Positions 11,592 to 45,225 of a stretch of DNA of 45,225 nucleotides are shown piece by piece. The stretch comes from Candidatus Desantisbacteria bacterium CG1_02_49_89 (lineage in GTDB: Bacteria; Desantisbacteria; UBA1551). The stretch spans positions 1 to 45,225 of the forward strand of contig MNUP01000051.1 in assembly GCA_001871075.1 (NCBI GenBank), in the 5' to 3' direction. A program made the position numbers and the translations under genes. Within the stretch, counting starts at the first letter, position 1. Each line of letters opens with the position of its first letter. Under the pieces are notes generated by a model. It saw only the letters and a list, made by a program, of their open reading frames with translations. It was not told the DNA's origin and searched no databases.

Positions 11592-11694
11592 TGGTTTATT
11601 AGGGGTAAAATGAAGGGGATATCACCCCATTTTCATCCATATAAAATATAATCAGCAAACCTAAAGGTTTGCCCTACGATAAAAATCCTTGTTG

Positions 11695-13914: not shown

Positions 13915-14125
13915 AACCCCCTCACCTCAATCCTCTCCCTCATACAACACCCCCATCTCAATCTTCCCCCATCGGAGGGGGAAGAAGATTTAGGAACAAT
14001 AAATTGAAGGGGGCGAGGAAGAATTTGGAATTTACATTTTTCATTTTGCATTTTGTTGAGCTGGTAGCGAAATCCCCCCTGCTTGCCCATTCAGGGCAGG
14101 GGGGGCATTTTGACTTTTGACTTTA
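13915..14125. other. Spacer with C-rich repeats and a bulged hairpin
   Basis: C-rich palindromic repeats like those around the DUF559 gene occupy about 13917-13990. At 14074-14105 there is a hairpin with lower stem CCCCCCT/AGGGGGG, a one-sided 4-nt bulge GCTT and upper stem GCCC/GGGC. This is the same geometry as hairpin 2 of the dispersed palindromic units. No gene is supported. Confidence 0.6.
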
Positions 14126-15070: not shown

Positions 15071-15131
15071 ATTATCTCCAAGGATAAGGATTTTTTAAGA
15101 ACTGGCATAGAACCTTAGGAATAGAGCCTTC

Positions 15132-15183
15132 AGGAGTAGACCCTTTAGGGTCGTAAAACAACGGGGCTAAAGCCCCTACTCCT
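15132..15183. repeat. Three-stem repeat (AGGAGTAG type), copy 1
   Basis: The outer stem AGGAGTAG/CTACTCCT encloses two hairpins, ACCCTttAGGGT and GGGGCTaaAGCCCC, giving a three-way-junction shape. A copy with one mismatch in about 50 bases is at 30970-31020. The GAATAGAGCCTT just before it looks like a decayed further arm. Confidence 0.8.
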
Positions 15184-15286
15184 AAATACGCACTAACCTT
15201 CTTTATTTATCAGGGCTCCCTCCTTAAAGATTTCCTCCTTAAAAAATTGGCGGACAAGGGCGGGTCTTCGAAAAGCCCTGAGCTAT

Positions 15287-18300: not shown

Positions 18301-19283
18301 CTTTGCTGGCGGTCCACGTAACCCGGTGATATCGTGTAAAGGAAAAGCGTGTCAGTGAATTTCGCCACTTCGGAGCAGATCTTCGGGCGGCGGAACGGCC
18401 CGTTCATTTCCCAGCCGAAAGTGTACCAGGTCAGGCCTGTGTGGCCCTTCATATACGCTGTCAGCCCCAGGGTGCTGTTCGAGTTGTCCCCGGTATACAC
18501 GGTCTTGAACCCGGTCCTGCCTTCTACTTCCTTTATAGTTCTCTGCCAGCCCTTGATGAAACCGTCAGCGCGGAATTCCTGCAGATCAGCGAATGACGTA
18601 TTCATAGGTTTCGCGTCCGATATCCTGACAGAGCTGAAATCCGGATAATCCTTTTTCCATTCCTGGCTCAATTTTTCAATTGAACCATATTTCGCGCCCA
18701 GGAATTCCCTGAACCCGTCATCACTCGCTCCCGGAGTGTAGTATGAAACGTAGATGTTGGTCAGTTTCTTCCCTCCTATGTCCGGAAAGCACGGCGATTT
18801 GCCGAATTCAGCCATATATTTTGAAATGAACTCAATATTGGGGTCCTGGCCTTTGGGAGTGTCGTAAGTTTTGTTGATCGTGGAAGGCTCAAGGTACGGG
18901 GACATATAAAGGCCGCGGCCTTCTTTCAGCAGTTCTTCCGCTATGCCGATACTCTTCTTGAAAAGGTTGAAGCTGTTGCCGTTATCCCAGTATGAGAACG
19001 CCGCGTGGTTTATCTGGTATTCGGTTATGCTCTTCAGCAGTTCCTTTATGTCCTTTTTATTATTGATGTTGTTATATTCGTAAGGGGCTGTCCAGCCAAC
19101 AAACCTCCACGGAGGCCCGCCGAACCAGGGATAGTAATACACCCCGACAACCGGCTCCCCGTTCTGCAGCAGCGCGTCCTTTATACCGGCCGCCCGCGCT
19201 TCGCGCGCCTGTGGAATTGAGATCGTCATTGCCGCCGCAATTATTGCTATTGCGATCATAACTGTTAAAGTTATTCGCTTCAT
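15396..19283 (-). CDS. Very large secreted TIM-barrel protein (putative glycoside hydrolase)
   Basis: From the ATG at 19283 (GGCGGGGGGAAT upstream) the product is 1295 aa with a signal peptide (about 1-30, ending QAREARA). Residues about 40-400 resemble GH99/WbsX-like or GH42-like TIM barrels: PVVGVYYYPWFGGPPWRF, INHAAFSYWDN and MILTHTEWFEGS. Residues about 410-600 (DIAVVYNEYLPF, then VVIVPACGFN) look like the flavodoxin-like domain that follows the barrel in GH42-type enzymes. Several beta-sandwich repeats with NPGKAKAEGSV and NSGGSAVKD patterns (about 770-950) and a C-terminal beta-rich domain follow. An upstream in-frame start at 19403 would cross a palindromic repeat and is rejected. Catalytic residues and substrate are not known. 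Confidence 0.72.
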   Translation of the reverse strand: MKRITLTVMIAIAIIAAAMTISIPQAREARAAGIKDALLQNGEPVVGVYYYPWFGGPPWRFVGWTAPYEYNNINNKKDIKELLKSITEYQINHAAFSYWDNGNSFNLFKKSIGIAEELLKEGRGLYMSPYLEPSTINKTYDTPKGQDPNIEFISKYMAEFGKSPCFPDIGGKKLTNIYVSYYTPGASDDGFREFLGAKYGSIEKLSQEWKKDYPDFSSVRISDAKPMNTSFADLQEFRADGFIKGWQRTIKEVEGRTGFKTVYTGDNSNSTLGLTAYMKGHTGLTWYTFGWEMNGPFRRPKICSEVAKFTDTLFLYTISPGYVDRQQRWTGGRIERDPFLYEYSWVQAMSTLPEGIMILTHTEWFEGSVIDETKEYGRKYLELTEMFGSIFKETFESGFAEKRRKKDIAVVYNEYLPFRLNASGEGGKDKDVLGMVKLLETLSQSFDVIPEPYLTAEELKGRKVVIVPACGFNLGKNGKGEFADSVIFDWVKATPGTAVFVTLSKKWADMLGLKYSEAAESGGEYEFGGVKFSDGSAKLKITGMPAGSEVLSYFTDKNPKIIKCGFKNGGSVIFINGEFGSDFLDAFYAPLGEGKYDDSRPRMFESALRTVYPAYSKTVDSYEIKAAPVLKAGGTMVVLAASAVPWGQIVEWRDVGWGIGVGHSNEFTKPWARKNVTFALDIPQGTAVTEVTAVSSDSGNFQAVDFSMKGGKLVFSYPIRFYAVFAVQLCPVRIECPVMEISPGKKISVPVLVSNPGKAKAEGSVRLKGSPGISSKEISFAVEAGGSQKIELPVEATDYATGTRTVALEVMSGRQRYVFWKGMKCLANAQPVLLTTRIIGKAGSVREVDLRFLNSGGSAVKDMKIQLGGVKGSVSVIEPGKEAPSVKMKITMPVPAAPEEISAEGSCDVSYAENGKEVSMQLPFKFIAIPLKPAVPEHVVQGRTDIYLISQFDGFKRKDWEPASVSLADLPKGLSASSTALFSDEGVSVPFEIKDNRMVFMVNLRGADFVKYYLYSGLKKAGVPGTDLKARSYLENKPGFISVGNGSIQWVFDERFSGNPVSISAAGYKDIAHYMGGSFAVRYNSNVRPVEEINSDADWDLETIDRIPSTLRVISSGPVEYCFENRVENETFSVRDVWTFWSLAKYCVLSREITFKKDARFFDFVPVSARLDASQFTQGWPNGVGFMPEKTKDKKGWLETWAVSDGYLMYAGEPKNTPRACGMIILDKDPVKRVRYGFFDSDYDVRLRSKKEFRQGEKLALRIAIAVGKRIYPADITPLREKILNPPLVWVANEK

Positions 19284-19442: not shown

Positions 19443-20918
19443 CTATTTAAAGCAGAAGGTGAAAAGCTTCGTGCTTCTTGAAACGAACTTAAGCCTGACC
19501 GGCTTATTTGAAAACCGGCTTACGTCGGTTTTTCCTTTCCAGGAAACCGCCTTCCTTATATAATTCCCGTTTATCACGCCGCAATCGCTTATTCCGTACC
19601 CTTCGATCTCCCTGCCTTTTTCGTCCAAAACCCCCACCCTCGCGCTTCCCGCAGCTCCTGTGTCTATGTTAAGCTCTAATTCTTTGCCTTCAAACAATAA
19701 CGGTTTTGTAACGGCAACTCCGCCTTCGTAATTTGAGTCCAGCGAAGCAAATCCGTCCAGCCTTATTTTCAGCAGCCTGATGACCGAAACTCCTTTTCCT
19801 GTTTTTTTGTCAAGCTTGCCGTGAGTGGTCGAGAACCCGCTGTAATACATCCAGACCTCGTCTTTGACAAAAAGCATTCCCTGTCCCATGTACAGCTGCC
19901 CGTCCTCTTCCCCTTCGGCCGAGGGTTCAAGCTGAACGAAAGGCTGGCGCGATATCCTGTCCCATTTTATCCCGTCCCTGCTCACCGCCATGTGTATGTC
20001 CAGGCAACCGTCATTATTATGCTCTCCGCCGTCCTGCGGTTCCGGAAAATGATAATACATGCTGGGGAACATAAAGTAAACGTTTTCCCCGGCCTTGTAT
20101 TTCACGTAACAGGGATTGTAAAAGTCGCAGTTCGGCGGGTCTTTTCGGTCCGCCCTGAGTATTGTGGGCAGCTCAAGGCTGATTGCCGGCTTTTTTTCTT
20201 TCCCCCACAGATAAAAGGGCGCCTTGTTTTTGGCGTACTGCCAGGGCTGCAGAAGATCATTGATCTCCGCCCTGCATACCACGCGGCGGTTTGAACGGTA
20301 AGGCCCGTTCTCCTCTTTTTCCAGAGACCTGAGTGCTTTTGGGGACAGGTCAACCCTGTTCCTCCACCCGCGTAAATAGGCCGTCCATTTTTGGAGCTTG
20401 TTGTCCCAGAGTATCTGGTTGTTCGTATCGCAGCAGAACGGCAGAAGGACTTTTTCGTTCTTTGACCATTTAAGGCCGTCCGGGGAATACCAGACCGTGG
20501 TCCCCCATTCTATTTCGCTCTGCACGTGGGTGAACCTGAACCTTTGATCCGGGCAGGAAGGATTGAAGTCCACCGTTCCCTCACCGCCTTCCGCGCCCAG
20601 GATATTTGTGTTTTTGATCCCCGCGTAATCCCGCAGGCCCAGTTCCGGCTTTTCCCAGTTTATCCCGTCCCGTGAAACGGCGTAACAGAGAGAATGCTTC
20701 CAGGCGTTGTCAAAAGCGGAATAGAACATTTTATATATGCCTTCGTCCTCGCACGCGCTGAAATACGCGCCCACGATGTAGCTCTCCCACGGCCTGTCGC
20801 TGCGCAGAACTACCTCGGCTTTCCGCGGCCGGTTCATCACGATGCTCACGCCGCTGGTCTTTTTTTTATCCAGCAGCCCCGCGTCTATAAAAAATTGTCT
20901 TCCTTCGCACTTACGCAA
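19443..20918 (-). CDS. GH32/GH43-like five-bladed beta-propeller protein
   Basis: The 491-aa product has repeated blade motifs typical of the GH43/GH32/GH62 superfamily: IYKMFYSAFDN, SLCYAVSRDGINWEKPELGL, TTVWYSPDGLKWSKNEKVLL, DIHMAVSRDGIKWDRISRQ and VWMYYSGFSTTHG. A small C-terminal beta-sandwich closes the protein. No signal peptide is seen, so it may act in the cytoplasm or on imported oligosaccharides. The start is a TTG at 20918 with a strong AAAGGAGG 8 bases upstream, 11 bases after the pyruvate kinase stop, so the two genes are probably cotranscribed. The Asp/Asp/Glu catalytic set cannot be confirmed by eye. Confidence 0.72.
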   Translation of the reverse strand: MRKCEGRQFFIDAGLLDKKKTSGVSIVMNRPRKAEVVLRSDRPWESYIVGAYFSACEDEGIYKMFYSAFDNAWKHSLCYAVSRDGINWEKPELGLRDYAGIKNTNILGAEGGEGTVDFNPSCPDQRFRFTHVQSEIEWGTTVWYSPDGLKWSKNEKVLLPFCCDTNNQILWDNKLQKWTAYLRGWRNRVDLSPKALRSLEKEENGPYRSNRRVVCRAEINDLLQPWQYAKNKAPFYLWGKEKKPAISLELPTILRADRKDPPNCDFYNPCYVKYKAGENVYFMFPSMYYHFPEPQDGGEHNNDGCLDIHMAVSRDGIKWDRISRQPFVQLEPSAEGEEDGQLYMGQGMLFVKDEVWMYYSGFSTTHGKLDKKTGKGVSVIRLLKIRLDGFASLDSNYEGGVAVTKPLLFEGKELELNIDTGAAGSARVGVLDEKGREIEGYGISDCGVINGNYIRKAVSWKGKTDVSRFSNKPVRLKFVSRSTKLFTFCFK

Positions 20919-22502: not shown

Positions 22503-22595
22503 CGTTTACCTACAATATTGAGCTCATCAAAAGGCGTATATAGTTGAATAGTCGAATTGTGTAAGGAAATTTAAAATAAATTCCTTGCACTACCG

Positions 22596-22729
22596 AAGAG
22601 CCATCGATACAGTTCTGGCTCGAAGGTCCCTGTGTTGAGCTGCGCAGCAGCTACAGGGGCAAATACATCGACCCCGTTCTGACCCGAAGGTCCCTGTGTT
22701 AAGTTCCAGTTTCATCGGAACTACAGGGA
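22596..22729. repeat. Two dispersed palindromic units (type 1)
   Basis: Unit 1 (22596-22658) has stem GAGCCA/TGGCTC, a CGAAGG linker, then lower stem TCCCTGT/ACAGGGG with its last pair broken, bulge GTTG and upper stem AGCTGC/GCAGCT. In unit 2 (about 22673-22729) the first stem is eroded; its second hairpin is TCCCTGT, bulge GTTA, AGTTCC/GGAACT, ACAGGGA. They lie in a gene-free spacer of about 510 bases (22503-23014) that also holds the repeats listed next. Confidence 0.85.
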
Positions 22730-24155: not shown

Positions 24156-24220
24156 CTTACCCCCGTTTTAGATTCAGAGAGTCAAAGAGTCAGAGAGTCA
24201 AAGTAAATACTCTCTGTGCC

Positions 24221-24420
24221 GTAGGGTCATCAGTGTGGCTCTGACCCGCAGGTCCCTGTGTTGAGTTCCAGCGTTATACCGAAGAACCATTCGCCTCGTT
24301 CTGGTTCGTAGGTCCCTGTGCCGCAGCCCGCCACGAATATTGGCGGGCGTAGGTCCCCCCTGTCACTTTCGAAAGAAAGTAGGGGGGATCCTGGGGCTAC
24401 AGGGATCGGAACTACAGGGA
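24221..24420. repeat. Three palindromic units nested inside one another
   Basis: The outer unit has stem GGGTCA (24224-24229)/TGACCC (24242-24247), then left arm TCCCTGTgttgAGTTCC (24253-24269) and right arm GGAACTACAGGGA (24408-24420). In its loop lies unit 2: GAACCA/TGGTTC (24284-24307), left arm TCCCTGT..AGCCC (24313-24329), right arm GGGCTACAGGGA (24394-24405). In the loop of unit 2 lies unit 3: CCCGCCA/TGGCGGG (24327-24347), then TCCCCCCTgtcACTTTC, loop gaaa, GAAAGTAGGGGGGA (24354-24388). All three keep the bulge on the 5' side only. The rest of the spacer 24156-24569 holds word arrays (GTCAAAGAGTCAGAGA at 24181; GAACGAAGAACGATG at about 24500) and a GCCCGCCA..TGGGCGGG hairpin at about 24540. 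Confidence 0.9.
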
Positions 24421-26519: not shown

Positions 26520-26556
26520 TTTTTTCACTCCTTTACCGTCGCTCAATTTACAATTT

Positions 26557-26668
26557 ATCCCTATAGTTCCTGTTAACGGAACTAACCATAGGGATCCTTT
26601 ATGGACAATTAACAATTTACCCCTTGCAGGTTTTTTATTAAACCCAAACGCAGGGGTTCTTTATGAAC
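26557..26668 (-). repeat. Two dispersed palindromic units (type 2), reverse orientation
   Basis: Unit 1 (26557-26606) read on the minus strand is GTCCataaaGGAt, then ATCCCTAT, bulge GGTT, AGTTCC/GGAACT, ATAGGGAT; an identical copy is at 38032-38081. Unit 2 (26619-26668) is GTTCataaaGAAC, then CCCCT..GGGTTT/AAACC..AGGGG. GTCC/GGAt versus GTTC/GAAC is a compensating difference. Both lie within the spacer 26520-26984. Confidence 0.8.
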
Positions 26669-26763
26669 AATGAAGGAATTTGTTGAAATAAAAACCTTGA
26701 ACCTCGGAACCACGGAACTTCGGAACCCCGGAACCAGTATTCTAACGATTTAACAACGATTCC

Positions 26764-28472: not shown

Positions 28473-28792
28473 TTATCCTTTGTAACCACAGGTTAACACA
28501 GGTTAACACTGTTTACCACGAAAGCCCTCTGCTGCTCCGAAGAACCCGGAGCAAAACGCGAGGACCTTCGCCCGCCAATAATCGTGGCGGGCTGCGGCAC
28601 GGAATTTCTGAAGCACGGAATAATATATAGATTTTGCTGACAACTGACCGTATAAAACAAGTTCCCCTTTCTGCTTTCATGAAAAAGCAGGGGAACAACT
28701 CACAACTGGCAACTGCCTTTAGTAACCACGAATTCTACAAATTCCTTGGACCATGAGCTATGAGCAATGAGCTATGAGCGATTTTAACGATG
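28473..28792. other. Gene-free spacer with hairpins and word arrays
   Basis: It contains an ACAGGTTAACAC tandem pair (about 28489-28509), a GCTCC..GGAGC hairpin (about 28533-28551) and a CCCGCCA..TGGCGGG hairpin (28571-28592). At 28661-28696 a bulged hairpin has lower stem GTTCCCCT/AGGGGAAC, bulge TTCT and upper stem GCTTT/AAAGC. At about 28741-28785 a word array (minus strand CTCATAGCTCATTG...) closes with CCAAGGAATTTG next to the URO-D gene end. Confidence 0.65.
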
Positions 28793-30879: not shown

Positions 30880-30969
30880 AGCCTACTTTTTAACCACGAA
30901 TTGTTTGCTTCGCAACATTCTTTGCGGGCTACGTCGATAAACGACGAATTGCACGAATTTTACAACTTG

Positions 30970-31020
30970 AGGAGTAGACCCTTTAGGGTCGTAAAATAAC
31001 GGGGCTAAAGCCCCTACTCC
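30970..31020. repeat. Three-stem repeat (AGGAGTAG type), copy 2
   Basis: It has one mismatch to 15132-15182 over about 50 bases: AGGAGTAG, ACCCTttAGGGT, GGGGCTaaAGCCCC, CTACTCC. Confidence 0.82.
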
Positions 31021-31105
31021 CAAAACTTTTCCACGGAAACACGGAAGGACGGAAACACGGAAAAATCTTTAACTTTGACAAATGGCTAAAGACTACTTTC
31101 AACCT

Positions 31106-31783: not shown

Positions 31784-31822
31784 TCCTTACCTTTTATCAT
31801 TGTAGATTTTAGATTGCAGATT

Positions 31823-31870
31823 GTCCCTAAAGGACCCCCGCGCATAGGTTTACAAAAAACCTGCGGGGGT
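31823..31870. repeat. Dispersed palindromic unit (type 2)
   Basis: GTCCctaaaGGAC is followed by CCCCCGC, bulge GCAT, upper stem AGGTTT/AAACCT and GCGGGGG. A relative with compensating changes is at 44105-44153. Next to it, 31895-31932 is a CATAACTCATAATT word array which on the minus strand starts at the esterase stop and closes with AAGCAAGGATTTC. Confidence 0.8.
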
Positions 31871-31937
31871 AGATTGAATTATAATGAAATCCTTGCTTCT
31901 GATTCATAACTCATAACTCATAATTCATAATTATTCT

Positions 31938-33218: not shown

Positions 33219-33225
33219 GAATTCC

Positions 33226-33296
33226 GTAGAGTCATTAGCCCAGCTCTGACTCGAAGGTCCCTGTGTTAAGTTCCGGTTTTATCGGAACTACAGGGA
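33226..33296. repeat. Dispersed palindromic unit (type 1)
   Basis: Stem GAGTCA/TGACTC (33229-33252), linker CGAAGG, TCCCTGT, bulge GTTA, AGTTCC/GGAACT and ACAGGGA (33258-33296). Confidence 0.85.
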
Positions 33297-37927: not shown

Positions 37928-37937
37928 TTTAACTCCC

Positions 37938-38081
37938 GAAGGGTCATTGGCTCGGTTCTGACCCGAAGGTCCCTGTGTTAAGTTCCAGTTTCACCGGAAC
38001 TACAGGGACAAAATACAACAATTTGCAATTTATCCCTATAGTTCCTGTTAACGGAACTAACCATAGGGATCCTTTATGGAC
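37938..38081. repeat. Palindromic units: type 1 forward, then type 2 reverse
   Basis: Unit 37938-38008 has GGGTCA/TGACCC, CGAAGG, TCCCTGT, GTTA bulge, AGTTCC/GGAACT and ACAGGGA. Unit 38032-38081 is identical to 26557-26606, including flanking CAATTT. They fill most of the gene-free spacer 37928-38230, whose end holds a CAAGGAAAT box (about 38150-38165) and a word array next to the following gene end. Confidence 0.85.
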
Positions 38082-38199
38082 AATTTGCAATTTAAAATGA
38101 AGGATTTTTTGTATTTAACGATTCTGCAGCAGTTTTTAATAAGGAACAGGCCAAACTATTTCCTTGCATCATTGAGTGATTTCAGACAATTCCTTGTTG

Positions 38200-44010: not shown

Positions 44011-44104
44011 GGCGGCTCATGTCCTTTATTTAAACCCATGACCCATGACACATGACTCATGACTGTATTTAAAAGGCCCGTCCCGGCTGCATTTTATAAT
44101 CACC

Positions 44105-44153
44105 GTCCCTAAAGGACCCCTGCGTCTTGCTTTCATTAGAAAGCTGCAGGGGT
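44105..44153. repeat. Dispersed palindromic unit (type 2)
   Basis: GTCCctaaaGGAC, then CCCCTGC, bulge GTCT, upper stem GCTTTC/GAAAGC, GCAGGGG. Compared with 31823-31870 both stems differ by paired changes. A CATGACCCATGACACATG word array (about 44036-44063) lies next to it. Confidence 0.8.
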
Positions 44154-44185
44154 AATCATCTTCTGATAATCACTGTAATCATTCT

Positions 44186-45079
44186 TTATTTAATGCTTTC
44201 GTCCGCCAGTATCCCGTAACCGGCGAAGAAATTGTCGAACAGTTTCGAGAATTTGGGCCAGTATTCCTCGATATTCTTGTAAGTGCCGTCTTTGTCCTTG
44301 TTCTTCCAGTCGTCCTTTTTTATCCCCGGCCCTCCGGGGATCTTAAGGCAGGCGGAAAACGCCAGCACTGTTTCTTTTCCTGATTTACCTGGAGCGTATA
44401 TCTCCACAAAGCAATCCCCTATCATTATGTCATCGTTCGTATAGCGCAGCAGGACCACCTGCACGACCATTACCGCGTCAGCGCCGGCTTCGGTGACCAG
44501 GGCGGGGAATAATTTCTTCCTGTTTTCTTCGCCGTTTAAAAATTTCAGGCCCAGCGCCGGGCTCATCCACTGGTTCTGGTTCAGGTATTCCCACCAGGCC
44601 CCTCCTTTTCCGGAAGAATGCGGCGTGATCCCGGTATAATATGTCGTGTCCAGCGCCTGGTATGACGCGCATGAATTAACCGTTTCCACCGGGAGGATCT
44701 CTATTTTCGCGGGCTTAAAATTGTTCTGGAATGACTGGGCTATAAGGGGGGTGAGCGCTTCCACCTGCGGTTTTGACTTGCCGATTATGCTCTCTTTCGC
44801 CGATTCCGTGGCGACCATTTCCACTATTCCAAGCAGTCCGCTGCCCCACCCTCCGAAGCCGAAAACAGCGTACCTGACATTAAATGCCGCCAGCGCGACC
44901 TTTTTGGGTATCGCGGCTATCTGCCCCTTGGTGGCCTTGAAATCGGTCACCACCCTTATGTTGTCGTTGATCCACCTTTTCGCCTCCTTGTCGTTATCAA
45001 ACGCGAACGCTCCAACCATCGGCAAAAACATCCCGATAAAAATAAACGCTGCTGCTGATACTACTGCTGATCTTTTCAT
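44186..45079 (-). CDS. Secreted protein of unknown function
   Basis: From the ATG at 45079 (GGAGGAAAA upstream) the product is 297 aa. It has a signal peptide (SAAAFIFIGMFLPMVGAFAF). The mature part is alpha/beta with AALVTEAGADAVMVVQVVLL-like features: LFPALVTEAGADAVMVVQVV and VEIYAPGKSGKETVLAFSAC suggest a CsgG/GNA1162-like fold related to lipoproteins that sense or assemble envelope structures, but this is weak. Three scattered cysteines (SCASY, GDCFV, FSACL) could form a disulfide. Upstream codons back to 45106 come from a palindromic repeat and are not counted. I do not recognise the family with certainty. Confidence 0.6.
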   Translation of the reverse strand: MKRSAVVSAAAFIFIGMFLPMVGAFAFDNDKEAKRWINDNIRVVTDFKATKGQIAAIPKKVALAAFNVRYAVFGFGGWGSGLLGIVEMVATESAKESIIGKSKPQVEALTPLIAQSFQNNFKPAKIEILPVETVNSCASYQALDTTYYTGITPHSSGKGGAWWEYLNQNQWMSPALGLKFLNGEENRKKLFPALVTEAGADAVMVVQVVLLRYTNDDIMIGDCFVEIYAPGKSGKETVLAFSACLKIPGGPGIKKDDWKNKDKDGTYKNIEEYWPKFSKLFDNFFAGYGILADESIK

Positions 45080-45091
45080 TTTTCCTCCTCG

Positions 45092-45225
45092 AAGCGCCAT
45101 TGACACAGCTCTGGCGCGAAGATCCCTGTGTTAAGCTCCGAAGGAGCTACAGGGACCGAAGAGTCATTCGCTAAGTTCTGACTCGTAGATCCCTGCGTTG
45201 AACTCCGAAGGAGTTGCAGGGACCG
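45092..45225. repeat. Two 67-bp tandem palindromic units (type 1) with compensating changes
   Basis: Unit 1 (45092-45158) and unit 2 (45159-45225) are exactly 67 bases each. First stems are GCGCCA/TGGCGC and GAGTCA/TGACTC. Second hairpins are TCCCTGT, GTTA, AGCTCC/GGAGCT, ACAGGGA and TCCCTGC, GTTG, AACTCC/GGAGTT, GCAGGGA. Most differences between the units fall in stems and keep pairing. A further unit may follow beyond the window edge. Confidence 0.92.

Follow-up and report, generated by a model that had tools for sequence, protein, structure and literature searches.

Hairpins with a one-sided bulge in the window

The window, which is the whole analyzed stretch of 45,225 nucleotides, carries near-palindromic hairpins in which extra bases interrupt one arm of the stem. 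The unit is built as a tag, 0-1 nt, an outer stem of 7-8 bp, a bulge with 4 nt on the 5′ arm and none on the other (4/0), an inner stem of 6-9 bp and a loop. The sites, with their assignment to the families T1 and T2 described below, are as follows.

14074-14104, plus strand: bulged hairpin without the common tag, CCCCCC(TGCT)TGCCC; the bulge can be written GCTT or TGCT
22593-22658, plus strand: T1 composite; CCGAAG, hairpin A (GAGCCA..TGGCTC), CGAAGG, bulged hairpin B at 22628-22658 with bulge GTTG
22685-22729, plus strand: T1 bulged hairpin; tag CGAAGG, bulged hairpin at 22691, bulge GTTA, hairpin A degenerate
24219-24284, plus strand: T1 copy whose hairpin B has no 3′ arm (the next unit interrupts)
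24348-24388, plus strand: T1 variant; tag CGTAGG, TCCCCCCT, bulge GTC (3 nt), ACTTTC
26557-26606, minus strand: T2 element; tag GTCCATAAAGG, bulge GGTT (or TGGT, in the other register), hairpin 26557-26595
26620-26668, minus strand: degenerate T2 element; tag GTTCATAAAGAA
26815-26861, plus strand: diverged T2-like element; tag TTCCTAAAGAA, internal loop GTGTG opposite T
28525-28570, minus strand: T1-like hairpin, absent from the sequence-only reading; tag CGAAGG, TCCTCGC, 4-nt bulge, GCTCCG
28661-28696, plus strand: bulged hairpin without the common tag, GTTCCCCT(TTCT)GCTTT; the bulge can be written TTCT or CTTT
31823-31870, plus strand: T2 element, the site at which the sequence-only reading was made; tag GTCCCTAAAGG, outer stem ACCCCCGC, bulge GCAT, inner stem AGGTTT, hairpin 31834-31870
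33224-33296, plus strand: T1 composite; bulged hairpin 33258-33296, bulge GTTA
37936-38009, plus strand: T1 composite; bulged hairpin 37969-38009, bulge GTTA
38032-38081, minus strand: T2 element nearly identical to 26557-26606; bulge GGTT/TGGT, hairpin 38032-38070
44105-44153, plus strand: T2 element; tag GTCCCTAAAGG, stem ACCCCTGC, bulge GTCT plus a T.T mismatch, inner stem GCTTTC, hairpin 44116-44153
45090-45155, plus strand: T1 composite; bulged hairpin 45123-45155, bulge GTTA
45157-45222, plus strand: T1 composite in tandem with the copy at 45090-45155; bulged hairpin 45190-45222, bulge GTTG

All the hairpins named by the sequence-only reading (31823, 44105, 26557, 38032, 14074, 28661 and its type 1) are present in the sequence. 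The structures were read by thermodynamic folding, which handles the T.T mismatch of the 44105-type elements; strictly, the element at 44105 forms a 5x1 internal loop with GTCTT opposite T, that is, a 4-nt bulge plus the mismatch. T2 elements lie inside tandem arrays of differing short units (AGATTG, TAAATTG, TAATCAC) at 31805-31880, 26544-26681, 38019-38094 and 44095-44190, and their junctions are constant, with YGT before the element and TA after it.

Other repeats were also observed. The segments 15128-15186 and 30966-31024 of the window (GGAGTAGACCCTTTAGGGTC..GGGGCTAAAGCCCCTACTCC) are 95% identical; with a GTAG end and a CTAC end, they resemble a double-foot REP (repetitive extragenic palindrome). 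At 11683, 15339, 22918, 26910, 38188 and 40768 of the window, AAATCCTTG..TTGCGTTGACACGC repeats are dispersed together with tandem units of GTTGACACGC. A third hairpin family, CGCCGTAG..AGCAAACC..GAATA loop..CGTAGGCGG, has its bulge (5 nt) on the 3′ arm as seen from its GTAG, the side opposite to that in T1 and T2; its sites are L073:15685-15726 and 18672-18713, L079:6309-6350 and 19596-19637, and one in L076.

Side of the bulge and pairing of the stems

T1 consists of the tag CGNAGG followed by an outer stem that is mostly TCCCTGY, and 70 copies were found by pattern. Their bulges (n = 70) are GTTA in 33, GTTG in 21 and ATTR in 9 copies, and the inner stems include AGCTGC, AGTTCC, AGCCCC, AGTCCGATG and others. 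The composite has the order CCGNAG-A-CGNAGG-B, with both tagged hairpins in one orientation. Hairpin A, which has its own CCGNAG tag, reads GRGYCA..TGRCYC or GCCCGCCA..TGGCGGGC and ends exactly at the CGNAGG tag in 60 of the 70 copies, compared with 12% for random positions. Ahead of the bulged hairpin B the tag contains GTAG in 17 of 70 T1 copies and mostly GAAG or GCAG in the rest, GNAG being nearly constant; GTAG is commoner ahead of hairpin A than ahead of hairpin B. T2 consists of GTCCNTAAAGG, with the tag AAAGG, followed by AYCCCTGC, a GTCT-like bulge and the inner stems GCTTTC, GTCCCGAT or AGATTT. The pattern (one mismatch at most) gives about 30 T2 copies, some of which are other palindromes.

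The sequence-only reading had called the stem sequences unrelated. This does not hold for the main families, which share an alignable tag, outer arm (CCCTGY) and bulge of the GTY type, and in which the inner stem alone turns over. By this alignment from tag to bulge, T1 and T2 are related families whose inner stem changes wholesale.

The reality of the bulge was examined in genome stretches and by pattern and model searches. A strict scan (outer and inner stem of at least 5 bp each, 12 in total, Watson-Crick pairs only) of the window and 18 other stretches, together 400 kb of the genome, found 63 hairpins with a one-sided bulge, compared with 4-8 per dinucleotide shuffle (five shuffles). In the same scan the 4/0 class was found 29 times versus 0 in the shuffles, and the 5/1 class 10 times versus 0.6. 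This comparison with shuffled sequence had been proposed as a check in the sequence-only reading.

Since a bulge that is 5′ on one strand is 3′ on the other, the claim that the extra bases always lie on the 5′ side was circular as first stated, the strand having been picked by the bulge. Therefore, we used a landmark outside the hairpin to set the strand, namely the tag immediately 5′ of it, and folded the downstream sequence without regard to the bulge. The starting sets were every CGNAG[AG] (N not G) followed by YCC, and every TCCNNAARGR-type tag. With the CGNAGG tag first, the bulge was 5′ in 89 hairpins and 3′ in 7, and 74 were exactly 4/0. With the TAAAGG tag first, it was 5′ in 19 and 3′ in 1, and 19 were exactly 4/0. 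Six controls with an altered tag or altered context gave 16 5′ and 14 3′ bulges in sum, and one was 4/0. When the hairpins were oriented by the bulge instead, the tag was found on the 5′-bulge strand in 84 and only on the other strand in 1. Thus, with the strand fixed by the tag, the claim stands; equal numbers on the two sides after correction for orientation, which had been named as the result that would overturn it, were not seen. These results confirm the bulge observation, far above chance. That the asymmetry is due to chance, and was seen because the reader could pick the strand at will, has next to no probability: the strand had indeed been chosen by the bulge, but the shuffle counts and the tag-first test both speak against it.

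Pairing was analyzed with the 70 T1 copies, which were picked on the 5′ arm alone. Under the model with a 4-nt 5′ bulge, 67 of 70 have 10 or more of the 13 positions paired and 42 of 70 have all 13, whereas with shuffled downstream stretches 1/70 reaches 10 paired positions and none reaches more. Across 31 aligned T1 copies, 12 of the 13 pairs change on both sides, which 0 of 500 shuffles reach; the rows of this covariation analysis were preselected as paired, and the 5′-arm pairing is the fairer test. The stems change by compensatory pairs, and the tag, the side of the bulge and its length stay fixed.

Distribution in the genome and the Y1 genes

A covariance model detected at least 109 copies in the genome from which the window derives, 5 copies in one relative of the same order and one weak match among 57 other genomes. 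By pattern, T1 gave two lone matches in 40 relatives, within the reach of chance. With this copy number by model and the 70 T1 copies by pattern, the elements are dispersed multi-copy palindromes, as are those of the REP superfamily. In 251 kb of the same-order relative, about 8 hairpins of similar build were seen, with 5′ bulges of 3-4 nt that are mostly GTYN (GTTT, GTCT, GTCC, GTT and TGCT); two of these elements have a true GTAG tag. In the genome of the window, 61 of 65 T1 copies lie outside ORFs, although ORFs cover 81% of the sequence; they are thus extragenic, as REPs are. GC skew is positive for 22 of 65 element strands, a weak lean in which linked copies are uncorrected and which we left out of the argument.

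The assembly is 93.5% complete, in 150 contigs, and contains ten Y1_Tnp genes. None of the ten has a T1 copy within 1 kb, and none is a RAYT (TnpA-REP) gene flanked by T1. Among the ten, a T2 copy is found only at the C13 gene, about 65 bp ahead of the start and inside the inverted repeats of the gene. Its product is an NCBIfam REP-associated tyrosine transposase, just over the cut-off. The gene (L002:1158-2013) is TIRYT-like; GGGGGACGGTTCYATTATT inverted repeats enclose it, and the T2 hairpin sits between the repeat and its start codon. Because dozens of copies lie in intergenic DNA, the T2 hairpin before the C13 gene can be a coincidence. Relatives of the C13 protein are common (19 of 59 genomes, its own included), and no bulged hairpins were found near the best of them (in G001), the one relative inspected.

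Other Y1 genes have repeats of their own. Two RAYT-like genes about 2 kb apart (L007, L008, G000:C23) lie amid arrays of bulge-less GTAACTCAAACCTTCAGGTTTGA-type palindromes (GTAACTC). The gene of a 188-aa Y1 protein on G000:C111 (L069) is flanked by repeated CCCCGAACAAGTTCGGGGCGTCCTGAAA, a palindrome that looks CGTC-tagged; this gene lies amid CCCCGAACAAGTTCGGGG palindromes. Several other Y1 genes are bracketed by inverted repeats of the GGGGAC or GGGACA type, as described for TIRYT/subclass 2.1. A sequence search of the PDB gave no match.

Enzymes that may read the hairpins

In structure, IS200/IS605 ends and PATEs resemble the elements: they are folded single-strand hairpins with extra-helical bases, a guide 5′ of the foot and fixed junctions. 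The elements could be PATE-like IS200/IS605 miniatures in which hairpin A of T1 is the left end and bulged hairpin B the right end of a lost IS, moved in trans by TnpA-IS200 beside a fixed short target. The two tagged hairpins in one orientation, with A abutting the tag in 60/70 copies, and the constant T2 junctions (YGT/TA) in tandem arrays fit this in part, and the genome has a classical TnpA-like gene (L001). However, L001 has perfect hairpins of its own on its flanks, CCCCGCGGCTTGCCGCGGGG, and neither T1 nor T2, which is a weak negative from one candidate; no full-length element with T1 ends and no transposase gene between such ends were seen. We regard this origin as rather unlikely. It is quite improbable that the hairpins are a structural RNA or an RNA-protein signal in transcripts (a terminator, or a processing or binding site), although compensatory change keeps the stems and the elements adjoin genes. 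They have no strand preference relative to the flanking genes (T1, 26 antisense and 18 sense; T2, 12 and 9), which also tells against the RNA-binding protein suggested in the sequence-only reading. Moreover, G.T pairs are scarce within the stems and about as few (8) as A.C pairs (7), although an RNA on the tag strand would be expected to have G.T in excess; a constant T run after the hairpin is absent, and Rfam gave no match for these hairpins in the window and three other stretches of the genome.

The sequence-only reading had also compared the elements with attC sites, in which one-sided extra-helical bases likewise give strand choice. Nevertheless, integron-type attC recombination sites are a highly improbable identity: integron integrase (TIGR02249) matched only below the curated cut-off, with similar weak matches in 14 of 14 control genomes, the copies are scattered and form no cassette array, and in our own reading of the sequence no paired R box was found.

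We conclude that the hairpins are probably REP elements of the long, bulged kind and that a Y1 (HUH) REP-transposase probably reads them as single-stranded DNA in folded form, with the tag and the bulge marking the strand. The proposal that the bulge gives an orientation to an otherwise palindromic element is supported; the tag accompanies the bulge as another mark of orientation, a combination also seen in the hairpins of REPs and IS200/IS605 that Y1 enzymes read. Subclass 2.2 REPs have a hairpin-bulge-hairpin structure with the tag 0 to 2 nt from the hairpin (PMC6006769), and the present elements have a stem of the same build. As their plan (tag, 0-1 nt, stem, bulge, stem) matches that of published REPs, we take them as REPs read by a Y1 enzyme. 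In E. coli REPs, GTAG and the stem bulge are both needed for cutting by TnpA-REP, and the tagged strand alone is bound (PMC8266576). By analogy, the unpaired tag carried by one strand (CGNAGG or TAAAGG) would be the counterpart of the GTAG foot, and the 4 extra bases on the 5′ arm, mostly GTTR or GTYT, between the outer and inner stems would make the near-palindrome strand-specific. The tag strand may fold while it is single, as in the lagging-strand template or during repair. A Y1/HUH nuclease of the TnpA-REP (RAYT) kind would then read the tag and bulge, present on one strand only, and by cutting and rejoining next to the element would spread copies between genes.

The closest known systems are alike in part. 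The REPs of subclass 2.2/group 2 TnpA-REP (E. coli y, z1, z2) share a 5′ tag, a stem broken in the middle, many intergenic copies and strand specificity. In contrast to the long bulged REPs of E. coli, which have a 2x2 mismatch, the present elements have an extra 4 bases confined to one arm, a GNAG or AAAGG tag, a double hairpin in T1, and no cognate gene found among the ten Y1 genes. The GTAG-tagged REP superfamily comprises short, tagged, high-copy intergenic palindromes, and some of its families vary the tag (GYAG and others) (PMC3733652). That survey dropped repeats whose stem had two or more mismatches and lists bulged repeats as possible omissions (PMC3733652), and the present elements are bulged. 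Against the REP reading count the Y1 genes without T1 nearby, the GTAG tag in only 17/70 copies and the 4/0 bulge. Since no Y1 gene is flanked by T1, we do not place the family among the RAYT-linked REPs; that it works like a REP still stands. The cognate enzyme may have been lost, may lie in the missing 6% of the assembly, or may be one of the ten Y1 genes acting at a distance. Thus, of the unknown enzyme that had been suggested, the cognate gene was not found, but the class that reads such elements is known.

A further possibility, which we consider unlikely, is that T1 and T2 are substrates of a subclass 2.1 (TIRYT) Y1 enzyme or of an undescribed Y1 class, with the 4-nt one-sided bulge as the reading mark. 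Several Y1 genes of this genome share with TIRYT/subclass 2.1 a YIExNP-type motif and GGGGAC-type terminal inverted repeats, and one has a T2 hairpin in its leader, whereas that subclass was reported to be without REPs (PMC6006769). If the enzyme is in fact a subclass 2.1 Y1 protein, the hairpins would be the first REP substrate for that large group.

In a bacterial lineage that has been poorly sampled, the elements form a REP-like family whose stem sequence turns over and whose tag and side and length of the 4-nt bulge are fixed. The fixed tag and bulge amid changing stems amount to a mutagenesis experiment done by nature on the features that a nuclease of single-stranded DNA reads.
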